From contig NZ_JANEYT010000010.1 of NCBI RefSeq assembly GCF_024357955.1, positions 1 through 64,000 on the forward strand: a stretch of 64,000 nucleotides of DNA, given 5' to 3'. This stretch comes from Photobacterium pectinilyticum. GTDB taxonomy: Bacteria > Pseudomonadota > Gammaproteobacteria > Enterobacterales > Vibrionaceae. This document shows, piece by piece, positions 12,677 through 62,543 of the stretch (the first letter of the stretch is position 1; every line of letters starts with the position of its first letter). The translations under genes and the position numbers were made by a program. The notes beneath the pieces were generated by a model. The model did no database searches and was not told the origin of the DNA. It saw only the letters and a program-made list of their open reading frames with translations.

Positions 12677-13367
12677 TGTGTCTCTCTCATCTCATAGCAG
12701 TTCGCCGGTTTGAGTCTCCGGCCAAGGTGGCTAAGTGTATTTGAGTTGATTCGGGATGACAAATTTTGCAGGCTATATCGGATGCCATTTTCGTGGTGTT
12801 ATTGATTTTTCGCGGTGACTGGCTATATCTTGAAAGAAAGGCCGTGATGGTTTTTGTGCGCTTAAAGGGTAAATTTGTAGGGTATAAAGATTAGGCATTA
12901 ACCTTATGAATTGCCGAAAAATTGTGAGCGATGGCAAAAAATAGTGGTTTTTTATAGTCAAACCGGTGCTGAGGTGGTAATGATTAGCGCCCATTGTGGT
13001 AGATGTTTTTCAGTCTTACGGCATAAATGAGAGGAATATCGCGTGGCAACCGAACTTGTCGGCACGTTTTTTTCCTATTCATTTAGTGGTGTAACTATCT
13101 GTTAACAAGTGGGGAAGGGACAACCAAACGGTCTCGTTTTGTTAAAAAGCAGTTGACCTTCTCCGATTGTAGCCCAATATGTAAATACCAATCACATTAC
13201 GTAACTAGTTATCCGGAGCTGTCCTCAACCGGTTGGATTTCGCGATTTAAATAGTTACTTAATCAGTTTGGTGTACCAGCGTTGCCGTGCTAGCTCTAGT
13301 TTTTTTAGCGTGCAACTAGTTGTTTTAATTTTAAGTTTTGTGAGCACGAGGACGTAATAGAATTATT
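12677..13367. other. 691-bp yciN-topA intergenic region
   Basis: AT-rich leader of topA and yciN. No convincing ORF. A weak terminator-like structure (CGTG..CCGA ACTTG TCGG CACG followed by seven T, about 13042-13073) could end a short plus-strand transcript. topA is known in other bacteria to have several supercoiling-sensitive promoters, which would fit such a long leader, but no promoter can be called reliably here. Confidence 0.35.
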
Positions 13368-16013
13368 ATGGGTAAATCACTCGTTATTGTGGAGTCCCCA
13401 GCCAAGGCGAAGACGATCAATAAGTACTTGGGTAAGGACTTTGTGGTTAAGTCAAGCGTCGGTCACGTTCGTGATTTGCCGACTGGTGCTCGTAGCACCG
13501 GTAAGAAAGCGGCGGCTACTTCAACCAAGGGCTTGAGCGCCGAAGAAAAAGCGCGCATCAAAAAAGAAAAAGACCGCAAATCGCTGATCAATAAAATGGG
13601 CGTGGACCCATACAATGACTGGGAGGCTCAATATGAAGTGCTTCCTGGTAAGGAAAAAGTGGTCAACGAACTACAGAAGCTAGCGGAAGATGCTGACTTT
13701 GTTTATCTCGCAACCGATTTGGACCGCGAAGGAGAAGCTATTGCGTGGCACCTTCGTGAGATCATCGGCGGCGATGATGCACGTTACAAGCGAGTGGTTT
13801 TTAACGAAATCACCAAAAATGCTATCCAGCAGGCTTTTGAGCAGCCGGGTGAGCTGAACATGGATGGTGTGAATGCCCAGCAGGCACGCCGATTCCTCGA
13901 TCGTGTGGTCGGCTTTATGGTTTCCCCTCTGTTGTGGAAGAAAGTCGCACGTGGTCTTTCTGCGGGCCGCGTACAGTCGGTTGCGGTTAAGCTGATTGTT
14001 GAGCGTGAACGCGAAATCAAAGCGTTCGACCCTGAAGAATACTGGGATATGCATGCCAACACCCAAACAGCAGGCAACGATGCACTGCGTTTGATGGTGG
14101 CACAACAGGCAGGCAAGGCATTCCGTCCGGAAAACGAAGCTGACACCATGGCGGCAAAATCGCTGCTGGAGAAGGCTGCCTTTACGGTTAAAGACCGCGA
14201 AGACCGACCAACCAGCAGCAAGCCGTCAGCGCCGTACATCACTTCAACGTTGCAGCAGGCGGCCAGTACCCGTCTAGGCTACGGTGTTAAACGTACCATG
14301 GGCTTGGCCCAGCGCTTGTATGAAGCCGGTTACATTACCTATATGCGTACCGACTCGACCAACCTGTCTAAGGAAGCGGTTGAAGCGGCACGTGAGTTTA
14401 TTGCTGGCGAGTACGGCGATAACTATTTACCGTCATCACCGAATGTCTACGGTAGCAAGGGTAATGCTCAGGAAGCGCACGAAGCGATCCGTCCTTCTAG
14501 TGTTGACGTGAAAGCGGAAAACCTTGAAGGCATGGAGCAAGATGCCATCAAGTTGTACGATTTGATCTGGCGCCAGTTCGTGTCCTGTCAGATGGTTCCG
14601 GCGAAGTACGACTCCACCACGATTACAGTGGAAGCGGGTGACTTTACCCTGAAAGCCAAGGGCCGTACCCTGCGCTTTGCGGGTTGGACACAAGTTCAGC
14701 GTCCGTCTGGTAAAAATGAAGATACGACGCTGCCAATGGTTCATGTGGGCGATACGCTCAAGGTTGAGTCGTTGGAGCCGAAACAGCACTTCACCAAGCC
14801 ACCGGCACGCTTTACTGAAGCGGCATTGGTTAAAGAGTTAGAAAAACGAGGCATTGGCCGTCCTTCAACTTACGCATCGATCATCTCGACGATCCAAGAT
14901 CGTGGTTATGTGCGTGTTGACCAACGCCGTTTCTATGCCGAGAAAATGGGTGAGATTGTTTCCGATCGCCTTGATCAAAGTTTTGCCGATTTGATGGATT
15001 ACGACTTTACTGCCCGTATGGAAGGTAATCTCGACAAAATCGCCGAAGGTGATGCGAGTTGGAAATCAGTACTCGATAAATTTTTCAGCGACTTCACTGG
15101 TGAGCTTGAGAAAGCTGAGCTGGATGAAACTGAAGGCGGCATGAAGCCGAACAATATCGTACTGACCGATATCAAGTGTCCGACCTGTGAACGCCCGATG
15201 GGGATCCGTACCGCGTCGACTGGTGTATTCCTTGGCTGTTCAGGGTATGCACTACCGCCTAAGGAACGTTGTAAGACAACGATCAACCTGGGTGATGAAG
15301 ACGGTATCATCAACGTGTTGGAAGAGGACGTTGAAACGGCCGCCCTGCGTGCCAAGAAGCGTTGTCCGAAATGTAGCACGGCGATGGATGCCTACCTGAT
15401 TGATGCCGAGCGCAAGTTGCATGTGTGCGGTAACAACCCAAGCTGTGATGGCTATGTGGTTGAGAAAGGTGAGTTCCAGCTAAAAGGCTACGACGGTCCG
15501 GTTATCGAATGTGACAAGTGTGGCTCTGATATGGAGCTAAAGAACGGTCGCTTTGGTAAGTACATGGGCTGTACCAGTGAAACCTGTAAGAACACCCGCA
15601 AGATTCTGAAGAACGGCGAGATTGCGCCACCGAAGGAAGATCCGGTACATCTACCAGAGCTACCTTGTTCACAGGATCCAGACGCTTACTTTGTATTGCG
15701 TGATGGTGCTTCCGGTCTGTTTATGGCGGCAAGTACTTTCCCTAAATCGCGCGAGACACGTGCGCCGTTGGTAGAAGAGTTGGTTCGCTTCAAAGACCGT
15801 CTGTCGCCGAAGTTCACGTATTTGGCTGATGCACCGACAGAAGATCCGGATGGTCGCCCGACAGTGGTTCGCTTTAGCCGTAAGACTAAGGAAAACTACA
15901 TTCGCTCGGAAGTTGATGGTAAACCATCAGGCTGGACGGGGCTGTTCATTGACGGTAAGTGGGAAATTACCGACAAGCGTAAAAAGCCGAAGAAAGAAAA
16001 GGCTGATGAATAA
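13368..16013 (+). CDS. topA: DNA topoisomerase I
   Basis: 881 residues, typical of gammaproteobacterial TopA. TOPRIM domain at the N-terminus ([32 protein letters not shown] supplies the metal-binding acidic residues). The catalytic Tyr lies in [12 protein letters not shown] (about residue 320). The C-terminal part has tetracysteine zinc ribbons ([46 protein letters not shown]), then degenerate ribbon-like domains and a lysine-rich tail. It relaxes negative supercoils by single-strand passage. Ribosome-binding GAGGA is unusually far (about 15 bases) from the ATG. Confidence 0.97.
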
Positions 16014-20384: not shown

Positions 20385-20423
20385 AGTGAAATCAGCACCG
20401 AAGTTAATCTAGAAGCGTGTATT

Positions 20424-20474
20424 TATACCAACCTAGATAAATATTTGATCAACGACTTATCCAGATTGGTATTA
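20424..20474. repeat. 52-bp palindromic repeat, copy 1
   Basis: Short form of the TAATACCAAyC...GrTTGGTATTA element: TTATACCAACC at the left end, central TTGATCAA (20446-20453), CCAGATTGGTATTA at the right end. It is followed by an additional half-end (CCAGGTTGGTGTTA, to about 20488), a sign of tandem or rearranged ends. Confidence 0.85.
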
Positions 20475-26836: not shown

Positions 26837-26888
26837 TAATACCAACCTACATAAATACTTGATCAACTATCTATCCAGATTGGTATTA
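26837..26888. repeat. 52-bp palindromic repeat, copy 2
   Basis: TAATACCAACC ... CTTGATCAAC ... CCAGATTGGTATTA. Its right end (26886-26888) is the TAA stop codon of yfaE on the minus strand. Confidence 0.9.
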
Positions 26889-27173
26889 GATGCTAACGTG
26901 CTGATCTTGCAGCTGGAGTTGGTATTCAAACTCGATATCAACATTACTTTTAGGGGTTGAGCAACACGCCAAGATTTCGCTTGGGGCGATAAATGCCATG
27001 GCGTCTTGTTGGTCGACTGCACCCGATTTTAGCTTGCAACGACAAGCGCCACACATACCGTTGCGGCATTGGTACTCGGGTTGAAAGCCTGCTTTTTCTA
27101 GTTGGTCGAGCAGAGGCTCACGGCTATTGCCGTGAACCTCGATACCATTGACGCAAATGGCGACTCGACTCAT
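26886..27173 (-). CDS. yfaE: 2Fe-2S ferredoxin for ribonucleotide reductase cofactor maintenance
   Basis: 95 residues. Plant-type ferredoxin fold with the Cys pattern [16 protein letters not shown] plus a later ILACCSTP. In E. coli YfaE supplies electrons to maintain the diferric-tyrosyl radical of NrdB. The ATG overlaps the nrdB stop by four bases (ATGA), so translation is coupled. Its stop codon is contributed by repeat copy 2. Confidence 0.93.
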
Positions 27174-37541: not shown

Positions 37542-37593
37542 TGATACCAGCCGGCATAAATATTTGATCAACTACTTATCCAGATTGGTATGA
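37542..37593. repeat. 52-bp palindromic repeat, copy 3
   Basis: GATACCAGCCGGCATAAATA ... TTGATCAACTACTTATCCAG ... ATTGGTATGA. Most diverged left end of the four short copies. It ends five bases past the lipocalin stop codon. Confidence 0.85.
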
Positions 37594-37597
37594 GTTG

Positions 37598-38143
37598 CTA
37601 CATTTTCTGCAACTGGTCAGGGTATAGCAGTTTGTCTGTTGCGAACCCCGCTTGCTCAGCGATGGCAACATAGCGGTCGATTCGTGCTTCATCCATGACG
37701 GGCTCTCTGGCGAGTAGCCATAGATAATCGGTGTTATAACCGCTGACGAGGGCAATCGAATAGTCTGGTTCGAGAAAGAACACCACGTAACTGCTGTAGA
37801 AGGGGCCGAAGAAAGAGACCTTGAGGTGCGCTTTGTCGGTATCATCAACAAAGACAGCCCGGCCATCAGCTTGCTGCCATTGTTGTTCTTCTGTGTCATA
37901 GCCTCGGTTGATAACTTTTATTGAGCCGTCATCATTGAGAGTATAGACGGCACTGACATGACTTAGGCCACGCTCGAAGCTATGGTCGAGTCGGGCAATT
38001 TCGTACCAGGTGCCAAGGTACTTATCGACACTGAAGGGAGAGACAGGCTCGACCGATTGGGGCATGCCGGTACAGCCTGCAAGTAGAATAGATGATAATA
38101 ACGCGAACATTGCTCGGGTAATGGTAATGAGTTTTTTCTTCAT
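37598..38143 (-). CDS. blc: Outer-membrane lipoprotein lipocalin (Blc-like)
   Basis: 181 residues from the ATG at 38143, which has GGAGGAACC just before it. Lipoprotein signal with lipobox LLAGC (Cys about 23), then the lipocalin first strand motif YLGTWYEIARLDHSFERG and later AVYTLNDDGSIKVINRGY. Blc-type lipocalins bind lysophospholipids or fatty acids and sit on the inner face of the outer membrane. Monocistronic on the opposite strand to serC and aroA. Confidence 0.92.
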   Translation of the reverse strand: MKKKLITITRAMFALLSSILLAGCTGMPQSVEPVSPFSVDKYLGTWYEIARLDHSFERGLSHVSAVYTLNDDGSIKVINRGYDTEEQQWQQADGRAVFVDDTDKAHLKVSFFGPFYSSYVVFFLEPDYSIALVSGYNTDYLWLLAREPVMDEARIDRYVAIAEQAGFATDKLLYPDQLQKM

Positions 38144-54996: not shown

Positions 54997-56394
54997 ATGA
55001 ATCGATTTAGCAATGAGTTGAATAAATTGGTGAACCGGAGTCTAGACCGCCATGTCCGTTTGGCGGTGACGGGCCTGTCCCGGGCGGGCAAGACCGCTTT
55101 CATTACTTCACTGGTTAATCAGCTTATGCATGTGAGTACTAACCCGCGATTGCCGCTGTTCACCGCCGTTAGGGATGATCAACTTCTGGGCGCCAAGCGG
55201 GTGCCACAAATTGATATGCATGTGCCTAAATTTGCTTACGAAGAAGGGATGGGCGCACTGCTCTCGGCACCGCCAAGTTGGCCCGAGCCGACGCGCGATG
55301 TTAGCCAGACCCGTTTGGCACTGCGTTACAAGCCCCAGCGTGGGCCGATGAAGCTGTTGCAAGAGACGGCAACATTGTATTTGGATATTGTCGATTATCC
55401 AGGTGAATGGTTATTGGACTTACCGTTGTTAGAGCTGGATTTTATGGCGTGGTCACGTCAGCAGGCCCAGATCCTGAAAGGTAAGCGTGCCGAGTTGGCA
55501 TCGGATTGGTTGGCGATGGCCGAATCTTTCGACCCATTGGCGCCGGCAGACGAGACGTTGATTGAACAGGTCTCGGCGCGTTTTACCGAATATTTGTATA
55601 AGTGCAAAGCAGAAGGTGGATTACATTGGGTGCAACCGGGCCGATTTGTTCTACCGGGTGAGCTGGCGGGTGCACCGGTATTGCAGTTCTTCCCGATGGT
55701 CTGGCTCGAAAAAATCACCGAGCAGCAATGGGCTGATGCCAATGAAGAGACCAATCTCGGTATGCTTAAAAGCCGCTACCGTTATTATCAGCAGCATGTT
55801 GTGAAGGCGTTCTATAAGGAGCACTTCTCCAAATTCGACCGCCAGATCATCTTGGTTGACTGTTTGCAGCCGCTCAATGCTGGGCCTGAGTCATTCAATG
55901 ATATGCGCCAGGCGCTAGACCAGCTGATGCAGAGCTTTCGTTACGGTCGTAGCTCAATGCTAAAACGTTTGTTCTCACCCAGAATCGATAAGGTACTGTT
56001 TGCGGCAACTAAAGCCGATCATGTCACGCCTGAGCAACATCCTAACTTGGTGAGTTTGCTACAGCAGCTTGTCAATGAAGCATGGCAAACCGCATCATTT
56101 GAGGGGATCAAGATGGATTGTGTCAGCCTGTCTTCGATTCAGGCCACCGAGCCGGGCTTCGTCGATTATCACGGTCGACAGGTGCCAGCCCTGCGAGGGC
56201 ACCAAATTGACGGTGATGCCAAGACCTTATTTCCTGGTGAAGTGCCACGCCGTTTGCCAAACGACACTTTCTGGCAGCAATCGGGCTTTGATTTTATTAA
56301 TTTCCGTCCGCTTGAAATGCAAAGCGACGAACCATTGCCACATATCCGGATGGATAAAGCAATGGAATACCTGCTGGGAGATAAATTGCGATGA
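54997..56394 (+). CDS. ycjX: YcjX-type GTPase-like stress protein
   Basis: 465 residues from the ATG at 54997 (CAGGAAAG upstream), equal to the E. coli length. P-loop GLSRAGKTAF (about 37-46); DIVDYPGEWLLDLPLL resembles a switch II DxxG-like motif; ATKADHVTPEQ is the NKxD-like element. YcjX (DUF463) belongs to the psp regulon in E. coli; function not defined. It overlaps ycjF by four bases. Confidence 0.92.
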   Translation: MNRFSNELNKLVNRSLDRHVRLAVTGLSRAGKTAFITSLVNQLMHVSTNPRLPLFTAVRDDQLLGAKRVPQIDMHVPKFAYEEGMGALLSAPPSWPEPTRDVSQTRLALRYKPQRGPMKLLQETATLYLDIVDYPGEWLLDLPLLELDFMAWSRQQAQILKGKRAELASDWLAMAESFDPLAPADETLIEQVSARFTEYLYKCKAEGGLHWVQPGRFVLPGELAGAPVLQFFPMVWLEKITEQQWADANEETNLGMLKSRYRYYQQHVVKAFYKEHFSKFDRQIILVDCLQPLNAGPESFNDMRQALDQLMQSFRYGRSSMLKRLFSPRIDKVLFAATKADHVTPEQHPNLVSLLQQLVNEAWQTASFEGIKMDCVSLSSIQATEPGFVDYHGRQVPALRGHQIDGDAKTLFPGEVPRRLPNDTFWQQSGFDFINFRPLEMQSDEPLPHIRMDKAMEYLLGDKLR

Positions 56395-57425
56395 GTGAGT
56401 CGTTAAAAAGCAAGATCGTTTTTGATGAGCCATCAAAGCCAAAGGCGGATACCGTCGAGGTTGAGTTGACGTCACAGTTGCAGTTTGCCGAGCAGGACAA
56501 GAGTTTCTTACCCGAGGCAATGGATACCGAACAACCGGATGTTGAAGCAGAGCTCGACCGAGCCCTGCGCAGTAAGCCCAAGCGCCGTTCTGGTTGGCTA
56601 AAAGGCTTAATGGTTGGCGGTGCAGCCATGGTGGGTTGGCAAACGGTGGATTATGTCGTGACGGCCTATCAGGGCGGTGATTGGCTTGCCTTGGGCTGGA
56701 GTGTCATTGTTGCCGGTATTGCCAGTGCGGGGATCACGGCACTGGGACGTGAGCTAATGAGCTTGCGTCGCCTTAAGCGTCGTCAGAGTGAGCGAGAGCA
56801 GGCGCAAGCCTTGCTTGAGGCCGATGGTATCGGTCAAGCCAAAGCGTTTTGTACCCGGCTAGCCAAGCAGGGCAAGGTGATGGAAGAGCATGCTGGCTAT
56901 GACAAATGGTTGCAGTCATTGGCGGCCACCCATAATGACCGTGAGGTGATGCAGCTTTATGATCGTATGGTACTGGGGCAACAAGATAAGCTGGCACGTA
57001 AACTGGTGGCGAAATATGCCAGTGAAGCCGCCGTTATGGTGGCGGTCAGTCCGTTGGCCTTGGCGGATATGTTGCTGGTGGCATGGAGAAATTTCCGATT
57101 GATTGACCAAGTCTCTAAGGTCTATGGCGTCGAGTTGGGGTATTGGTCGCGGATCAAGTTGGTAAAGTTAGTGCTTGCCAATATGGCGGTAGCTGGTGCC
57201 AGTGAAGTCATTGCTGATAGCGGTATGGATATGCTCTCGATGGACTTGGCGGGCAGAATGTCGACCCGCGTTGCCCAAGGTGTCGGTGTTGGTCTGCTGA
57301 CTGGCAGGTTAGGACTCAAGGCAATTAACCTGATGCGTCCGCTGCCATGGCAACCCGAGCAGCAGCCTAAGCTGAGTGAAATTCGTAAAGATCTGCTTAG
57401 CCAGTTGACCCATAAAGAACGCTAA
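56391..57425 (+). CDS. ycjF: YcjF membrane protein (DUF697)
   Basis: 344 residues. Acidic N-terminal region, two transmembrane helices (about 75-125), and a C-terminal DUF697 domain (AVMVAVSPLALADMLLVAWRNFRLIDQVSKVYGVELG; ARMSTRVAQGVGVGLLTGRLG). Works with YcjX presumably at the inner membrane; role in the Psp response is inferred from conserved linkage. Its TAA stop is the first three bases of the long repeat that follows. Confidence 0.92.
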   Translation: MSESLKSKIVFDEPSKPKADTVEVELTSQLQFAEQDKSFLPEAMDTEQPDVEAELDRALRSKPKRRSGWLKGLMVGGAAMVGWQTVDYVVTAYQGGDWLALGWSVIVAGIASAGITALGRELMSLRRLKRRQSEREQAQALLEADGIGQAKAFCTRLAKQGKVMEEHAGYDKWLQSLAATHNDREVMQLYDRMVLGQQDKLARKLVAKYASEAAVMVAVSPLALADMLLVAWRNFRLIDQVSKVYGVELGYWSRIKLVKLVLANMAVAGASEVIADSGMDMLSMDLAGRMSTRVAQGVGVGLLTGRLGLKAINLMRPLPWQPEQQPKLSEIRKDLLSQLTHKER

Positions 57426-57587
57426 TACCAATCTGGATAAGTAGTTGATCAAGTATTTGCACTGGAAAAGTCGTTGTTATCAAGGCAGATATTGCAGTCA
57501 CTAGTGGCTCTAATTACAAAATATCTAACGCAGAGAACAGCGATTTTAACCAGCAAGACTGATCAAATATTTATGTAGGTTGGTATA
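57423..57587. repeat. Long (165-bp) form of the palindromic repeat
   Basis: Outer ends match the short copies: left TAATACCAATCTGGATAAGT...TTGATCAAGTATTT (57423-57458), right TGATCAAATATTTATGTAGG...TTGGTATAA (to 57587). Between them lie about 100 bases which are themselves an imperfect inverted repeat (CTGGAAAAGTCGTTGTT with AACAGCGATTTTAACCAG; AGATATT with AATATCT). The four 52-bp copies look like internal deletions across the shared TGATCAArTATTT. It begins in the ycjF stop codon. Confidence 0.85.
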
Positions 57588-57626
57588 AAGACCAAGCTTA
57601 TCGTAAGGGAAATTTTTCATTACTAA

Positions 57627-60772: not shown

Positions 60773-60824
60773 TTATACCAACCGAGATAAATACTTGATC
60801 AACTACTTATCCAGATTGGTATTA
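60773..60824. repeat. 52-bp palindromic repeat, copy 4
   Basis: TTATACCAACCGAGATAAAT ... TTGATCAACTACTTATCCAG ... ATTGGTATTA. Its right end supplies the TAA stop codon of cydC (60822-60824, minus strand). Confidence 0.9.
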
Positions 60825-62543
60825 GATACGTTGCCAAAGCTCGGTGTATCGACCATTTTGGTTCAGCAGTGCGTGGTGCTTGCCTTGCTCGATAATTTCA
60901 CCTTCATCCATCAAACAGATATGATCCATGTGCTCCAAACCAACCAATCGGTGGGTAATGAACAGCACGGTCTTGTCTTTGGCGTGTTCCAATAGCAAAG
61001 CTATGATCTGCTGCTCAGTACGGCGGTCAAGGCCTTCGGTCGGTTCATCCATAAGTAGGATTGGTGCGTCGTGCAGCAGGGCACGGGCGATACCGATACG
61101 GCGACGTTCACCACCAGAGATCTGACGTCCGCCTTCACCAAGCCATGTATCCAGCCCTTTACCTTCCAGCAAAGCGTCTAGGCCAACGTTGGTAAGCACG
61201 TTGCAGAACTCTTCGTCAGTTCCTTGCGGTTTGGCAAGCAGCAGGTTCTCGCGCAGCGAACCGTTGAAAACATCAACACGCTGGCTAACAACAGTAATTG
61301 CTTGGCGCAGCGGCGCTTCTTGCCATTGGGGCAGCGGTACTTCATCGAGGGTGATTTGCCCCTGCTGCGGATCCCAGTTGCGGGTGATCAGCTGCAACAG
61401 GGTCGATTTACCGCAACCAGTTCGACCTAGCAGTGCGACTTTCTCGCCTTTGCCTATGGTCAATGAGATATTTTTCAGTACTGGTTCGTCACTGCCGTAA
61501 TAGGTGTAGCTGATATTCTGGAGATCCAGCGCACCCTCAACCTCTGCGGTATGGCCGTTAGGATCAAACGGTGTATCTGGGGTCGCTTCAATGATCTCAT
61601 TAAGTCGACGGGCAGATGTCAGGGTCTGCCCCAAGTACTGGAACGCGCCAGCCACGGGCATCATTAGCTCGAAGCTGGCCATGGTGGCAAAGGCGACCAT
61701 GGCTACAAACGGGTCTGGTGCTTGTCCGGCAATGCCATCAGCTGCTATCCAGGTGATCAGTACCAGTGTCCAGCCCGTTGCCGCCATCAGGATCGCATTG
61801 GCAAGGCCGGTAAGGTTGGCCATTTTCCGTTGTGCATCTAATAACGCTTGTTGCTCATTAAGGGCGGCCTGATAGTAACGCTCCTCGGCATTAAACAATA
61901 GCAACTCGGCATTGCCCTGGATCCAGTCCAGCATTTTCACCCGATAATTGGCTTTGGCCATCGTCAGGGTTTCACCGTTGGATTTACCTAGACGGTAGAA
62001 GATAACCGGCAAGATCAGCATCAGGCTGAGTAAAATGGCACCAAGGGTCAGGCCTATAGTGACATCAAACCAAGCAAGGAAGCCTGTGATAGCCAGTAAC
62101 CCAATGACACCGATAAGTAATGGATTAACCAAGCGCAGGTAGACGTGGTCCATCGCATCGACATCGGCGACCAAGCGGTTGAGCAAGTCAGCATCGCGTA
62201 GGTTGGTCTGTCGACCCGGGATCAACGGAGTCAGCTTTCGGAAAAAGAACAAACGCAAGTCAGCCAGCAGTTTGAAGGTTGCGTTGTGGCTGACCACTCG
62301 CTCGCCCCAGCGGCCCGCCGTACGGGCAATAGAGAAGCCTCGTACACCCGCACCCGGTAGCATGTAGTTGAAGGTTTCACGGGCAATGGTGAGGCCTGCA
62401 ACGGCTGAGGCCGTAATAAACCAGCCCGATAGGGTCAACAGGCTCATGGCAGCCAAAAGAGTGCCTAGGCCAAGCAACATGCCAAGTGTCATGCCGAACC
62501 AGTGTTTACGATAGAGTTTGAGGTAAGGGATTAAATCACGCAT
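60822..62543 (-). CDS. cydC: Cysteine/glutathione exporter subunit CydC
   Basis: 573 residues, the E. coli length. Six transmembrane helices then an ABC ATPase: Walker A GRTGCGKST, signature ISGGERRR, Walker B ILLMDEPT, H-loop LFITHR. CydDC exports thiols to the periplasm, needed for cytochrome bd assembly. It overlaps the end of cydD by eight bases. Its stop codon lies in repeat copy 4. Confidence 0.95.
   Translation of the reverse strand: MRDLIPYLKLYRKHWFGMTLGMLLGLGTLLAAMSLLTLSGWFITASAVAGLTIARETFNYMLPGAGVRGFSIARTAGRWGERVVSHNATFKLLADLRLFFFRKLTPLIPGRQTNLRDADLLNRLVADVDAMDHVYLRLVNPLLIGVIGLLAITGFLAWFDVTIGLTLGAILLSLMLILPVIFYRLGKSNGETLTMAKANYRVKMLDWIQGNAELLLFNAEERYYQAALNEQQALLDAQRKMANLTGLANAILMAATGWTLVLITWIAADGIAGQAPDPFVAMVAFATMASFELMMPVAGAFQYLGQTLTSARRLNEIIEATPDTPFDPNGHTAEVEGALDLQNISYTYYGSDEPVLKNISLTIGKGEKVALLGRTGCGKSTLLQLITRNWDPQQGQITLDEVPLPQWQEAPLRQAITVVSQRVDVFNGSLRENLLLAKPQGTDEEFCNVLTNVGLDALLEGKGLDTWLGEGGRQISGGERRRIGIARALLHDAPILLMDEPTEGLDRRTEQQIIALLLEHAKDKTVLFITHRLVGLEHMDHICLMDEGEIIEQGKHHALLNQNGRYTELWQRI

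Follow-up and report, generated by a model that had tools for sequence, protein, structure and literature searches.

The 64,000-nucleotide stretch of Photobacterium pectinilyticum DNA analysed here (the window) raises the question of why copies of one repeat lie so close to the stop codons of genes, in some cases supplying the stop itself. A preliminary description had listed one long and four short copies with common ends; all five were present, with slightly corrected boundaries (20423 and 57588). Coordinates of these copies include the 3-bp flanks, and the strand refers to the orientation of the long copy. The long element, with both of its 3-bp flanks (TAA...TAA), spans 57423-57588 (+), the element proper being 160 bp long (57426-57585, +). 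Its left flank (57423-57425, +) is the TAA stop of an upstream DUF697 gene (56391-57425, +). The short elements all lie on the - strand. The copy at 20423-20474 is flanked by TTA on both sides and sits between convergent genes, while that at 26837-26888 has the non-identical flanks TAA and TTA, the right flank being the TAA stop of a ferredoxin-like gene (26886-27173, -). The copy at 37542-37593 has TGA flanks, and the one at 60773-60824 has TTA flanks, of which the right one is the TAA stop of an ABC-transporter gene (60822-62543, -). As had been noticed, stops coincide with repeat ends: at 57425 (+), 26886 (-) and 60822 (-) the TAA that closes an ORF consists of exactly the three flanking bases, and a lipocalin ORF stops at 37598, 4 bases beyond its copy. 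Pfam assigned the neighbouring genes to the lipocalin (PF08212), 2Fe-2S ferredoxin, ABC transporter and DUF697 domain families; the gene names yfaE, cydC and ycjF are those of the preliminary description only.

The repeat belongs to a large family. At least 40 long copies with 94-100% identity were found in the genome of the same strain (5.7 Mb, 200 contigs; 40 of 211 candidates scored). A 36-base end/short pattern, allowing up to 3 mismatches, matched this genome 129 times, ends of long copies included, against 0 matches for the reversed control, which makes a chance resemblance untenable. A sample of 854,041 bases, made up of the window and 40 further stretches of the genome, held 34 complete or near-complete elements (16 long, 18 short) and 3 fragments, and extrapolation gives about 230 copies genome-wide. 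Long elements were also obtained from Photobacterium, Vibrio, Aliivibrio, Aliagarivorans, Shewanella and further relatives; when clustered at about 90% identity they gave 29 representatives, of which 27 measure 155-161 bp and the remaining two 151 and 177 bp. The terminal inverted repeats are imperfect, 26-27 bp long, and start with TACCAA. The longest stop-free run is 25-52 codons in 27 element types, and the types differ by indels of 1-3 nt. Terminal inverted repeats, a target-site duplication, a short non-coding body (160 or 46 bp) and numerous dispersed copies are the features of a miniature inverted-repeat transposable element, and the five window copies belong to one non-autonomous transposon (MITE) family.

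The target duplication was read from the flanks of 154 copies. The flanking 3-mers were identical in 27 of 37 own long copies, 28 of 41 own short copies and 47 of 76 copies from other species. All 102 identical 3-mers were TNA, and 97 of them were TAA or TTA; the target is thus TWA and rarely TSA. Where TNA stood on both sides, the middle base agreed in 27 of 29 own long, 28 of 33 own short and 47 of 57 other-species copies, compared with 13.3, 12.6 and 24.8 expected for independent flanks. Identical TNA flanks and agreeing middle bases indicate a 3-bp duplication, mostly TAA/TTA, in place of the TA that had been proposed. Empty sites were found in a relative (G007) that is 86-89% identical in this region. 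At the site of the long copy it reads CGC-TAA-GATC, with a single TAA that is already the stop of the same gene, and the 60773 site contains just one TTA, complementary to the pre-existing stop. These empty sites show that the stop codons beside the copies at 57423 and 60773 predate the insertions and were then duplicated, in agreement with the proposed insertion at gene ends. The relative also has an empty site at C145:64431 (short copy). At C145:66017 (element C145:66014-66065, L094:6014-6065) a stretch of 13 bp (TAATACCAAC...) is left in it, suggesting that an older copy decayed or was partly excised. The long copy at C145:76953 falls in a gap between aligned blocks.

We then considered where the copies lie relative to genes, which were predicted with a simple codon-based caller. 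Both neighbours were called for 33 of the 34 sample copies: 23 were in convergent gaps, 10 in tandem gaps and none in divergent gaps, whereas TNA sites drawn at random from the same intergenic sequence would be 12.7% convergent (p = 6e-14) and 32% divergent (p = 3e-6). Divergent gaps are avoided rather than forbidden, since they hold 2 own copies outside the sample (a set made up of top search matches, not drawn at random) and 7 of 73 copies in other species. Six own copies, at the edges of contigs or loci, lacked context. The duplication was exactly a stop codon in 8 of the 33 sample copies (4.9% expected, p = 1.5e-4). The claimed overlap with stops thus stands above chance, but most of the enrichment was gone once the TWA preference and the gene-end class were modelled: 17 of 70 own copies overlapped a stop against 9.9 expected (P = 0.015), the sample alone gave 8 against 4.8 (P = 0.09), and in other species the overlap was 11 of 73. 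Selection for stop codons was for this reason rejected as the main cause, a 1.7-fold excess remaining after target preference and 3' location were accounted for. Stop overlap results mainly from the target word being a stop codon and from the survival of copies behind genes, a simple explanation in which such an insertion is silent.

The window alone had suggested an orientation bias. In all five copies the better-folding strand is co-directional with the gene ending just ahead on the same strand, the stop being at most 4 bases away in four cases and 99 bases away in the fifth; the folding z-score was -7.6 for the + strand of the long copy, -6.1 to -7.1 for the - strand of three short copies and -2.5 for the fourth. 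This bias was absent over all copies: orientation to tandem genes in all species was random (long 23:25, short 6:9), and the stop was at the 5' versus the 3' side of the element in 17:11 cases (p = 0.34). Random orientation speaks against any role in host mRNA that requires a single orientation. With terminators called by a simple rule of our own, a terminator-like hairpin was kept in 18 of 23 convergent gaps with an element versus 68 of 96 gaps without one (p = 0.61). The element as a terminator finds no support in this comparison, flanking terminators being retained as often as in element-free gaps; together with the random orientation, this goes against the transcript-end hairpin role put forward in the preliminary description. 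A terminator-like hairpin was present on one side only in 16 of the 23 convergent copies, which places these copies between stop and terminator; 9 were in sense and 7 in antisense (p = 0.80).

The short form (46 bp, or 52 bp with target duplications) corresponds to the long form minus 114 bp between two 13-bp direct repeats, TGATCAAGTATTT (57446-57458, +) and TGATCAAATATTT (57560-57572, +), as expected from the earlier suggestion that short forms are deletions at TGATCAARTATTT. The comparison of the two forms was made on full-length own copies only (29 of 37 long, 33 of 41 short). The junction base of the short copies was G in 20 and A in 13, as produced by crossovers on either side of the single mismatch between the direct repeats, and the 46-bp copies would therefore have arisen by deletion probably at least twice. 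Position 18 was A in 27 of 33 short but only 11 of 29 long copies (Fisher p = 6e-4), a skew that, as far as sequence can tell, points to spread from few founders. Divergence from the consensus over the shared 45 nt was equal (0.97 changes in long, 0.91 in short copies). With haplotypes that differ from the long ones and the same divergence, short copies would probably move by themselves, and single ones may be later deletions. Since short copies seem to spread, the ends alone would be enough for movement, which would make the interior cargo. A separate 46-bp form, whose interior is different, occurs in a second Photobacterium species (G029; L232).

We sought to characterize this interior. Alignment of the 27 element types, found by sequence alone (the 151- and 177-bp representatives were left out), gave a consensus fold of 47 pairs, 26 of them with compensatory changes. 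Double-change cells numbered 119, compared with 32.2 in shuffled alignments (0 of 500 reached 119) and 14-25 in slid controls. At the pairs that were predominantly Watson-Crick, G-U exceeded A-C by 64:9, a count taken from the pairs of the + strand fold and hence somewhat favourable to G-U. For the whole element, the + strand was the better-folding one in 28 of 29 representatives, and the same was true of 96 of 100 copies and of 49 of 51 short forms. For the cores alone, within the order of the window, this was so in only 12 of 27 types, and much of the strand bias in folding in this order therefore lies in the arms.

More distant cores were collected with a structure-aware model (R1), a procedure that leans towards pairing. 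The search covered the loci L257-L284 except L270, which hardly differs from L269 (27 of 28 loci), and of the 35 matches obtained 29 were aligned. Left out were four opposite-strand or second matches (L275, L278, L259) and two copies from genomes already represented (L277 and L278:1536-1687). Several of the 29 rows share a genome (e.g. L268 twice, L271 twice, L275 twice, L257/L284, L264/L279, L259/L278), three (L272, L275 twice) belong to the order of the window, and the ranges of L259 and L279 were manually adjusted to the CAAGGC motif. The 29 cores shared 27 pairs, 26 with compensatory changes, and had 236 double-change cells versus 65.5 in shuffled and 20-52 in slid controls; the covariation score was 0.854 versus 0.251 and 0.07-0.15, respectively. 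G-U exceeded A-C by 55:6, again counted on pairs of the + strand fold, and 24 of 29 cores folded better on the + strand. The layout is stem, CAAGGC, variable stem, GCAG, hairpin, CAAG, stem', AACGC, stem', and the non-palindromic internal loops, CAAGGC opposite AACGC and GCAG opposite CAAG, persist across the 29 cores. The element thus contains a strongly covarying core of about 80 nt that forms a conserved hairpin, and the bias of G-U over A-C is suggestive of a fold at the RNA level. A second model (R2), built from distant cores with no Photobacterium or family row, although its rows had originally been found through R1, located the core of the long element at 57467-57549 (+; 74.7 bits, E = 2.4e-16). 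R2 also found it in 28 of 28 supplied loci of the window's order with long elements and in 16 of 16 long copies of the sample. Its three extra matches in the sample were a contig-edge fragment (E = 0.075), an element at C111:105713-105977 and a weak match in L098 (30.5 bits). A scan of the element and core copies of the window and 27 other element loci against Rfam 15 gave no convincing match, the single overlap being at chance level (L276, E = 0.07; 29.6 bits where the cut-off is 100).

The core extends far beyond the window. R1 matched 194 of 296 sampled genomes of the window's family (6 of 13 genera; E <= 1e-3), 104 of 295 genomes of the order (27 of 100 genera; E <= 1e-4) and 37 of 369 genomes of the class (31 of 272 genera, 29 family labels; E <= 1e-5), the own genome being counted at each level, 8-10 candidates being scored per genome under strict filters and E-values being rough. 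Eleven listed class-level matches covered the interior only, from position 32 or 43 to 121-132 of 160. Element ends were read in 28 loci from 21 distant genomes and, where discernible, differed from those of the window. Two architectures were seen. In the first, an element of about 160 bp holds one core and its ends resemble GGAACCTCTGATTAA; flanking repeats are clear only in some cases (TTAA in L284, whose ends are GGAACC, and CTTA in L282). In the second, elements of about 255-280 bp carry a pair of inverted cores; R1 matched twice in each of L268, L271 and L275, a second core unit was recognized by eye in L269 and L285, and CTAG flanks L271 and L285. With two inverted cores, a transcript from either side would hold one sense core. 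Searches of phages, E. coli and viral contigs gave no match, and among plasmids one Photobacterium and one Azotobacter record matched, further plasmid searches giving none.

The element at C111:105713-105977 of the own genome is 263-265 bp long and has TACCAA-like ends; its R2 core lies at L067:5856-5937, and its second half resembles another hairpin unit. It looks like a link between the single-core and two-core architectures within one genome. On the Azotobacter plasmid pAcX50f (L285), a two-frame transposase gene with HTH_32 and DDE_3 domains (1191-2436), which we take to be IS630-like, runs at its 3' end into a 263-bp CTAG-flanked element with a core. This DDE_3 transposase was considered as a partner and rejected: the element has CTAG-flanked ends of its own, and we read the arrangement as an insertion beside the transposase gene.

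Taken together, we assign a probability of roughly 0.8 to the reading that the repeat is a MITE family mobilised in trans, which carries a covarying RNA-type core as cargo and is placed at gene 3' ends. A putative IS5-like transposase, suggested by the duplication types, would mobilise the element in trans. A TAA stop is a valid target; the protein remains unchanged because the stop codon itself is the target and is duplicated on insertion. Copies elsewhere would probably be lost by selection. The core may be transcribed by read-through from the neighbouring gene, and its most likely role would be that of a structured RNA serving the element or the hosts, for instance by binding a protein.

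Three other explanations were weighed. The repeat might be a transcript-end hairpin selected by the host, a terminator or mRNA stabiliser for which the position at the stop codon is useful. The strong hairpins, the 3'-end enrichment and the small residual stop excess would fit, yet orientation is unbiased, adjoining terminators are retained, the element ends without a U-run, and target and location account for most of the stop overlap. Duplications and empty sites, moreover, document insertion since the split from G007, and we regard this explanation as improbable. Even less probable is that arm covariation is a by-product of palindrome correction, through template switching, with no selection for the fold; correction copies one arm of a palindrome onto the other, and the element is indeed a long imperfect palindrome. 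This process would however not predict the great excess of G-U over A-C on one strand, and the non-palindromic loops persist in the 29 distant cores; we hold it to be the least credible of the three.

A stronger competitor, although still an unlikely one, is that the core belongs to the transposition machinery, for example as an RNA or a folded single DNA strand bound by the transposase. Retention of the core in otherwise divergent elements with different ends, and conservation of the fold despite random orientation to host genes, would fit such a role. The core-less 46-bp copies are nevertheless about as numerous and as little diverged as the long ones, and the core seems dispensable unless all of them are later deletions. 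Since copies without the core seem to spread, we favour cargo over machinery. The trans-mobilised MITE with an RNA-type cargo remains our preferred reading.

The element is of a known kind, a MITE, with an apparently undescribed structured RNA module; what is new is the covarying core common to elements with different ends. In the open full-text literature searched we found no description of the element, and six sequence strings gave no match there. Whether the core is an undescribed class of bacterial structured RNA, a Gammaproteobacteria-wide cargo of non-autonomous transposons with unrelated ends, is close to an even question, and we put it forward tentatively, at slightly less than even odds. 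If true, the transposon would be the vehicle and the RNA the conserved function. Bacterial MITEs are usually seen as debris of insertion sequences, while here a hairpin core with very strong covariation is kept. A functional core would mean a class-wide RNA hidden in repeats, for which the natural 46-bp forms without the core provide ready controls.

Subgroups of the IS5 family have TNA or YTAR target duplications, with 3-bp TNA the rule for the IS1031 type, and this is the duplication found here. The element thus resembles IS5-family derivatives, and related elements with TTAA (L284) or CTAG (L271, L285) flanks carry the core; it differs in that the own genome yielded no insertion sequence with TACCAA ends. 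PF13586 had no match in five of five genomes. Ten PF01609 matches in the own genome had other ends or no matching ends, and none had TACCAA inverted ends (14-mers 0.8-2.6 kb apart were scanned). Exact end pairs 0.7-4 kb apart were absent by eye from four genomes, only three of which had any exact end, and terminal inverted repeat pairs more than 200 bp apart in element loci, as far as followed (L102, L126), were neighbouring copies or chance. No autonomous partner was therefore found in the few families, four genomes and retrieved loci examined; to our knowledge, many accepted MITEs are without a known partner.

ERIC, REP and QMITE2 sequences are, like the Photobacterium element, hairpin repeats behind genes. 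ERIC is a long imperfect palindrome of about 127 bp with a TA target and without a known transposase, whereas the Photobacterium element has 160 bp and a TWA target. An E. coli ERIC copy (L197), the one copy tested, gave no match to R1 (E <= 10), R2 (E <= 1) or the profile (E <= 100). The copy, at positions 259-378 of L197, matches the Rfam family V_AS5 (RF02818, Vibrio RNA AS5; E = 1.2e-6, 44.5 bits, gathering score 96), and V_AS5 may be an ERIC element. PMC10969869 describes ERIC as a high-copy intergenic repeat of Enterobacteriaceae and Vibrionaceae, calls it a MITE and reports that insertions at gene 3' ends affect mRNA. GTAG REPs/REPINs likewise lie between convergent or tandem ORFs, have G-T pairing in their stems and have already been described to supply stop codons with their ends; REPs are 20-40 bp long, and the movement of GTAG REPs is attributed to RAYT tyrosine transposases (PMC3733652). 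The Photobacterium element differs from REPs by its TACCAA terminal inverted repeats, 3-bp target duplication and stop-supplying TAA end. QMITE2 of Coxiella burnetii, compared by description only, is a MITE of about 190 bp that occurs in full-size as well as smaller versions, and one of its insertions, at the 3' end of a gene, affects the stop; it differs in having direct repeats of 7-9 bp (PMC5896051).

Two minor observations concern the window itself. A stretch of about 90 bp at 13184-13275, in the divergent gap ahead of the gene at 13368, is palindromic at its ends (TACCAATCAC / TTTGGTGTA) and is matched weakly by R1 (19.8 bits, E = 0.025); it is probably a decayed relative with another interior. 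The direct repeats at 57446-57458 and 57560-57572 resemble, except for the first base, WATCAANNNNTTR, which we take to be the IHF-site consensus. An IHF site has been reported in QMITE1 (PMC5896051).
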